Shown: positions 62,694 through 64,000 of the stretch, piece by piece
Layout of the letters: every line of letters begins with the position of its first letter
How positions within the stretch are numbered: the stretch's first letter is position 1
Made by a program: the position numbers and the translations under genes
From: Pontiella agarivorans
GTDB lineage: Bacteria > Verrucomicrobiota > Kiritimatiellia > Kiritimatiellales > Pontiellaceae
Assembly (NCBI RefSeq): GCF_034531395.1
Contig: NZ_JARVCO010000007.1
Span: 186,001 to 250,000, forward strand
Reading direction: 5' to 3'
DNA: 64,000 bases
Notes under the pieces: model-generated
What the model saw: only the letters and a program-made list of their open reading frames with translations
Told to the model about the DNA's origin: nothing
Database searches by the model: none

Positions 62694-63914
62694 ATGCAAA
62701 ACGTTAAAATCCTGCTGGGTGGAGTTCCGTTCGGCCGAAATAATGTGGGTGATGAAGCAATCCTTGAATGTGTAGTTGGATTGCTGAAAGAGCTTGCGCC
62801 CGGCTGTTCCATCACCGTCAGCACCGACAGCCAGCAGGAGACCGAAAACCGACTGAACGTACGAACGGTACCGCTGTTCGGTTTTCAGCCGGCCTACAGT
62901 CCCCGTCAGATGGAAGAGGAAATTGCCCGGGCGGATGTCTTCATCTGGGCCGGTGCAACCGGTCTTTCCGACTATCCGGAAATTCCGCTTTCCATGCTCG
63001 AAATTGCCCATCACCGGCAAACAAAAACGGTACTTTGGGGGGTCGGCATGAACGATGAGCTCAATCCGTATCTCTATAAAGTGCTGCCCGGGAAAAAAAG
63101 GCTGCTGTTGAGGCTGCTCACCGTGCTCACACTCAATCGCATCAATTTCATTCAACGTCTGGAAGAACGGCGCGAGGCGAGAGCCCGCAATAAGATTGTA
63201 GAAGAACTCAACCGCTGCGATCTGGTGGTGCTGCGCGATCCGGAGACGCTCAATGCAGTGCATCACTGCGGAGATGTTCCGGATGTAATGGTCGGTGCCG
63301 ATTCCGCCGAACTGCTCCAGCCGTCACCATGGGACCGGGTTTGTCTGACCCAGGAGGCCCGGGCGATACTCACATCCCCTGCGCGGAAGATCGGCCTGTG
63401 TATTTCCGCACAACGGCAGCTCGTGCATGAAAAGGAATTGATTGAATTTCTGGATCAGCTGGCCGACCGCGATTACCGCATTGTTTTTCTGCCCATGAAC
63501 CACGCAACCGATGCACCGCTGATGGAGTCCATGCGCGACCGGATGCAAAACAAAATGCACTCCGTAGTCATCGGCGGGAAACGCACCCCCGGTGAAATTC
63601 TGGCTATTGCCGGAAAGTTGGATCTGGTGATCAGCAGCCGTCTGCACCTGTTGATTCTGGCATCGGTACTGCATATTCCAATCATTGGAATCAGCCGCGG
63701 CAGTAAAGTGGATAATTTCCTCACCATGTTCGACCACGTTTCCGCCGGAAGTGTGGATGAATGCGACTTCGAACATATGCAGGCGGAACTCGACCGGCTG
63801 ATCGAAAGCCGGGCCGAATTCGAAGAGGTCAGTACCGCCGTGCACGACATGCTGCTCCAGCGATTGGAAGACGCTAAGGTGCGGTTGACCGAGGTGCTGA
63901 AACAATCCTTGTGA
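62694..63914 (+). CDS. Polysaccharide pyruvyl transferase family protein (CsaB-like)
   Basis: About 406 residues: LLGGVPFGRNNVGDEAILEC at the N-terminus, then FIWAGATGLSDYPEIPLSML, TVLWGVGMNDELNPYLYK and, near the C-terminus, DLVISSRLHLLILASVLHIP. These are the marks of the WcaK/CsaB pyruvyl transferase family, which put ketal pyruvate on cell-wall or exopolysaccharide sugars. The start is the ATG at 62694 without a clear ribosome site. It diverges from maf across the palindrome. Confidence 0.88.
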   Translation: MQNVKILLGGVPFGRNNVGDEAILECVVGLLKELAPGCSITVSTDSQQETENRLNVRTVPLFGFQPAYSPRQMEEEIARADVFIWAGATGLSDYPEIPLSMLEIAHHRQTKTVLWGVGMNDELNPYLYKVLPGKKRLLLRLLTVLTLNRINFIQRLEERREARARNKIVEELNRCDLVVLRDPETLNAVHHCGDVPDVMVGADSAELLQPSPWDRVCLTQEARAILTSPARKIGLCISAQRQLVHEKELIEFLDQLADRDYRIVFLPMNHATDAPLMESMRDRMQNKMHSVVIGGKRTPGEILAIAGKLDLVISSRLHLLILASVLHIPIIGISRGSKVDNFLTMFDHVSAGSVDECDFEHMQAELDRLIESRAEFEEVSTAVHDMLLQRLEDAKVRLTEVLKQSL

Positions 63915-63941
63915 ATTTCATACATTGCAATGTATGAAATT
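63914..63941. promoter_or_regulatory. Perfect 28 bp palindrome 1 (paired operator candidate)
   Basis: Reads AATTTCATACATTG then CAATGTATGAAATT with no loop. It starts at the last base of the pyruvyl transferase stop. The centre is 59 bases from that of palindrome 2. Confidence 0.75.
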
Positions 63942-63972
63942 ATAGAAAAGCTATAAAAATAAAGCCCCCTGT

Positions 63973-64000
63973 TTTTTCACACATTGCAATGTGTGAAAAA
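63973..64000. promoter_or_regulatory. Perfect 28 bp palindrome 2 (paired operator candidate), at the window edge
   Basis: Reads TTTTTCACACATTG then CAATGTGTGAAAAA. It shares the core TTCA-Y-ACATTGCAATGT-R-TGAA with palindrome 1; the one differing core position changed on both sides so that symmetry is kept. It may run past the window end. Confidence 0.75.

Follow-up and report, generated by a model that had tools for sequence, protein, structure and literature searches.

The two palindromes at the end of the window, the 64,000-nucleotide stretch of the Pontiella agarivorans genome analysed here, very probably form a paired operator of TF1, a putatively self-regulated protein with two ArsR-type winged helices (a dual wHTH protein) that is encoded elsewhere in the genome. 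We favour this reading because the pair belongs to a set of 25 sites, because the sites lie at orthologous positions in relatives, because regulator genes of the TF1 family are linked to palindromes, and because TF1 and the sites co-occur within the genus. The tie between TF1 and the sites consists of this co-occurrence together with an autoregulatory position, and on these sequence grounds the roughly 15 dispersed site clusters very probably have a single self-regulated DNA-binding protein as their binder.

The palindrome pair and its neighbours

Two perfect palindromes with centres 59 bp apart, first described in an earlier note on this DNA, are confirmed, with lengths of 28 and 30 bp (Table 1). 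When 24-mers were allowed up to three mismatches, two were found compared with 0.00 expected in shuffled sequence. Palindrome A starts at the final base of the upstream gene's TGA stop codon; this gene we regard as a neighbour and not as part of the operator. The spacer measures 30 bp between the full palindromes and 35 bp between the 24-bp cores. The TATAG..CTATA dyad that had been pointed out between the palindromes is indeed present, but it is missing from the orthologous spacer of the relative G025 and is probably due to chance. The spacer was rejected as a conserved promoter or dyad since its sequence is not conserved between orthologues, and a search of it for a sigma-70-like match found none.

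Table 1. Positions of the palindromes, the adjoining gene and the TF1 gene. Positions are those of the window except where a genome and contig are named.
Feature	Position	Strand	Remarks
Polysaccharide pyruvyl transferase gene (PF04230)	62694..63914	+	Neighbouring gene; stop codon touches palindrome A
Palindrome A, AATTTCATACATTGCAATGTATGAAATT	63914..63941	.	28 bp, perfect; one of 25 genome copies
Palindrome A, 24-bp operator core	63916-63939		Type T..A
AT-rich spacer	63942..63971	.	Holds the TATAG..CTATA dyad
Palindrome B, TTTTTTCACACATTGCAATGTGTGAAAAAA	63972..64000 and one base beyond the window	.	30 bp, perfect
Palindrome B, 24-bp core	63975-63998		Type C..G
TF1 gene	G000:C12:340411-340962		184-aa protein, two ArsR-type winged helices; site pair just upstream

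The pair had been thought to lie just before a gene starting after position 64,000, but the next gene, which encodes a rubredoxin-domain FAD oxidoreductase on the opposite strand, is transcribed towards the site and has its end some 23 bp beyond palindrome B, so that no gene starts there. The window pair thus sits between the 3' ends of two convergent genes and not in a promoter position. In Pontiellaceae bacterium B12227, the nearest named relative found, there is no site at this locus and the two convergent genes abut, leaving no such interval.

Sites across the genome and in relatives

The source genome comprises 4.44 Mb in 12 contigs. The genome-wide search for the core that had been proposed earlier returned 25 copies of an 18-bp core at 15 loci, and the same genome held no degenerate copies at one or two mismatches. 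At 10 of the 15 loci the copies are paired 58-60 bp apart, and this spacing, to which the earlier note had already attached meaning, recurs in other species and upstream of regulator genes. All sites of the source genome have GC as their central dinucleotide, while spacers and flanks show no resemblance from copy to copy.

The change from T..A to C..G between the two window copies is real, but it does not prove selection on both halves as had been argued. The Y/R position is T..A in 14 of the 25 sites, C..G in 2 and mixed in 9, just as expected from independent half-sites (13.7, 1.7 and 9.6, respectively), and since half-sites vary independently the argument from a compensated change fails. 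Selection on the sites is evident from their sequence conservation at orthologous positions. In the single-contig genome of G025, every one of the 15 loci has a site in the orthologous interval. Across the 19 palindromes for which a comparison between the source genome and G025 was possible, the arms are identical at 380 of 418 positions (90.9%), the central dinucleotides share 0 of 38 bases, GC never occurring at the centre in G025, and the spacer interiors are 57% identical against a non-orthologous baseline of 53%. The set (19 palindromes, two species) has kept its arms and its places and changed every centre. Several of the loci are also shared by G017 and G024, with further core variants. 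A single match in G023 was taken as chance, as it lies inside an ORF in a 63%-complete genome that has no TF relative. The copies are many, which the earlier note had associated with a repetitive element where a link to promoters is lacking, but their positions are conserved and their spacers and flanks unrelated, and for these reasons we do not regard the sites as such an element.

The gene context of the 15 loci is convergent at six, divergent at three, codirectional at about five and intragenic at one (within dus), and these orientations differ from those of a plain promoter regulon. Since six loci are convergent and one lies inside dus, a role beyond promoter control is possible. No clear common pathway was found among the genes flanking the sites, and a single regulon theme was rejected, the genes being mixed, with what may be a loose redox flavour. 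CRISPR-like repeat-spacer units were ruled out as there is no array and the 25 copies are all that exist, and a phage origin was ruled out with 0 matches in viral contigs. The only Rfam RNAs near the loci were tRNAs.

The intragenic site is carried in frame by the dus linker, at a position kept in many species (L030:2193-2216; orthologues L221-L238), although the linker is variable and several species are without it. In the source genome, G025, G005, G019 and G021 the core of the dus site is that of a regulator operator of the same genome. The exception is G024, where the dus core is CTTGCAAG and the TF1 core ATTGCAAT. On sequence grounds it is difficult to account for this pattern unless binding has been selected for. 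That a regulator's sites should be retained between converging genes and within a tRNA-modification gene is a puzzle.

TF1 and its family

TF1 matches PF01022 (HTH_5) twice (E 5.7e-14) and scores 77 bits against NF033788, for which the cut-off is 55. Its best PDB match is SmtB (1r1t); the PDB matches cover one half of the protein, no solved structure matched both domains, and no known equivalog model reached its cut-off. The two sites at the TF1 gene have their centres approximately 27 and 86 bp upstream of the ATG, and this position supports TF1 autoregulation well. Within the genus, close TF1 orthologues (61-78% identity) are present only in G025, G024 and G017, which are exactly the genomes with the site set.

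The same arrangement is seen throughout the family. Each of the 25 family regulators examined is preceded by a palindrome lying 13-53 bp from the start codon; many have another some 60 bp farther upstream, and the operator core differs by paralogue. Two paralogues in the source genome, TF2 and TF3, account for sites with odd cores elsewhere in that genome (CTTCGAAG and YTGCGCAR, respectively). As predicted, a search with the core of the operator before the G013 regulator gene found it again at five G013 loci, mostly paired. The G013 pairs are spaced 58 or 69-71 bp apart, the wider spacing occurring at L203 and L205-L207; the step from 59 to 70 bp adds about one turn of the helix. In the wider class, 14 of 28 regulators reach a score that was met in 22 of 4763 null windows. 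The family is present in 30 of the 116 genomes of the class that were sampled, and our literature search found nothing on dual-wHTH regulators of this kind. The dozens of paralogues, every one accompanied by a palindrome with its particular core, make up a natural record of protein-DNA co-evolution, and on sequence grounds this little-known family seems to offer a natural experiment in the joint evolution of a protein and its DNA sites.

The sites had been predicted to bind a protein dimer, and the sequence comparisons support this. A TF1 dimer would probably bind each 24-bp palindrome, its four winged helices covering about 2.3 helical turns, and two dimers 57-61 bp apart would probably interact, giving cooperative pairing. 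We infer a division of labour in which the constant outer arm, TTTCAYAC, is read by the C-terminal winged helix and the variable centre by the N-terminal one. In the first winged helix, PVASSYLR is common to the TF1 proteins of the source genome and G024 (GC centre), while PCTSVYLR is found in G025 and SAASTCLR in G017 (TA-type centres); in the second winged helix ISPQALYRH is constant, like the outer arms. With so few sequences, the possible tracking of the site centre by first-helix residues is a lead only. Binding to the sites before its own ATG would allow TF1 to repress itself, and at the divergent and upstream loci TF1 may control promoters directly. At the window copy it might serve as a barrier or an architectural clamp, a suggestion that we make tentatively and hold somewhat short of an even chance.

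TF1 resembles the ArsR/SmtB regulators in its type of winged helix and in having a palindromic site at the start of its own gene, as do the genes of its family (25/25). It differs from them in carrying two winged helices in one 184-aa chain, compared with a single domain of about 100 residues, and in that its putative operators occur in fixed pairs, between convergent genes and within a gene. TetR-type operators, such as that of AcrR, also consist of a 24-bp dyad with CATACATT-like half-sites, as here; however, the half-site spacing differs and the protein linked to the sites here is ArsR-type, not TetR-type.

Other readings of the sites

Several findings sit awkwardly with the operator reading. 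Six convergent loci and one inside dus are odd for the operator of a repressor, the neighbouring genes have no clear common pathway, the near-perfect symmetry up to the centre exceeds the need of a simple dimer, and in G024 the cores of dus and TF1 differ. It is conceivable, though rather unlikely, that the dual-winged-helix family, known so far from this bacterial class alone, binds fixed palindrome pairs at conserved places irrespective of promoters, as a DNA-bridging or boundary system in which all site centres have changed together with the protein.

Somewhat less likely still is that TF1 binds all of the sites but has bridging, segregation or division control as its main job and not transcription, in the manner of Noc, SlmA and MatP. 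The binder is the same in this reading and in the operator reading; the purpose differs. The folds of Noc, SlmA and MatP differ from that of TF1. Like the sites of these proteins, those of TF1 are short dispersed palindromes that are not tied to promoters; they are conserved in position, paired at a fixed distance and independent of gene orientation (6/15 convergent, 1 intragenic). Noc likewise binds sequences spread around the chromosome (PMC4331003). The sites of TF1 differ, however, in being paired at 59 bp and in occurring also at its own gene. The loci are only about 15 in number, TF1 looks autoregulated and its paralogues have small site sets of their own, all of which speak against such a role. 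In G025 no clean ori or ter exclusion zone was found; the loci divide 12 to 3 by replichore, a weak bias with ori (~3.35 Mb) and ter (~1.35 Mb) placed from coarse GC skew.

Since TF1 binding is inferred from sequence, the sites could in principle be operators of another protein. We consider this very unlikely, as 25 regulator genes of the family are each linked to a palindrome of their own core and TF1 co-occurs with the sites in the genus.

The palindromes had also been called poor RNA hairpins, yet each of the two in the window folds well as RNA, with a 12-bp stem and a 4-nt loop (-10.9 and -12.9 kcal/mol). On the minus strand, from 63950 to 64000 and about 12 bases beyond, palindrome B forms part of a longer stem with a U-rich run, TTTATTTTT, after it, and this stem, which is imperfect in G025, may be the terminator of the convergent gene. 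Both features would suit mRNA-end hairpins acting as terminators or mRNA stabilisers, but as an account of the sites this is highly improbable. A C-A mismatch interrupts the corresponding stem of palindrome B's orthologue in G025, sites are found upstream of genes too, and the primary sequence is constrained far beyond the needs of pairing. In G017, moreover, the inner positions of many sites do not complement each other (A..G, T..T), and this favours a protein dimer since a dimer tolerates such mismatches and an RNA stem does not.

The least probable reading, in which a transposase has recently carried a mobile palindrome of the REP/REPIN or MITE type to 15 places, is largely refuted: paired short palindromes that are lineage-specific and mostly intergenic, as in REP/REPIN elements with their RAYT transposases (PMC3116915), the five Y1-type transposases of the source genome and the abutting genes of B12227 would all fit it, but the sites keep fixed orthologous positions from species to species even though every centre changes, their spacers and flanks are unrelated, degenerate copies are lacking, and none of the five Y1 genes adjoins a site.

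Further members of the family

A third dual-wHTH subfamily is encoded immediately downstream of an RsmE-like gene (GPEGGW motif) at L212 (G000:C2:239806-240240), L151-L153, L169 and L170, and it has either one operator or two that are 22-33 bp apart. Palindromes of the TF2/TF3 type also lie within coding genes (L208, L209, L102 and L101), those of L102 and L101 reading in frame as FHTFEGVK and FHTCASVK, respectively.
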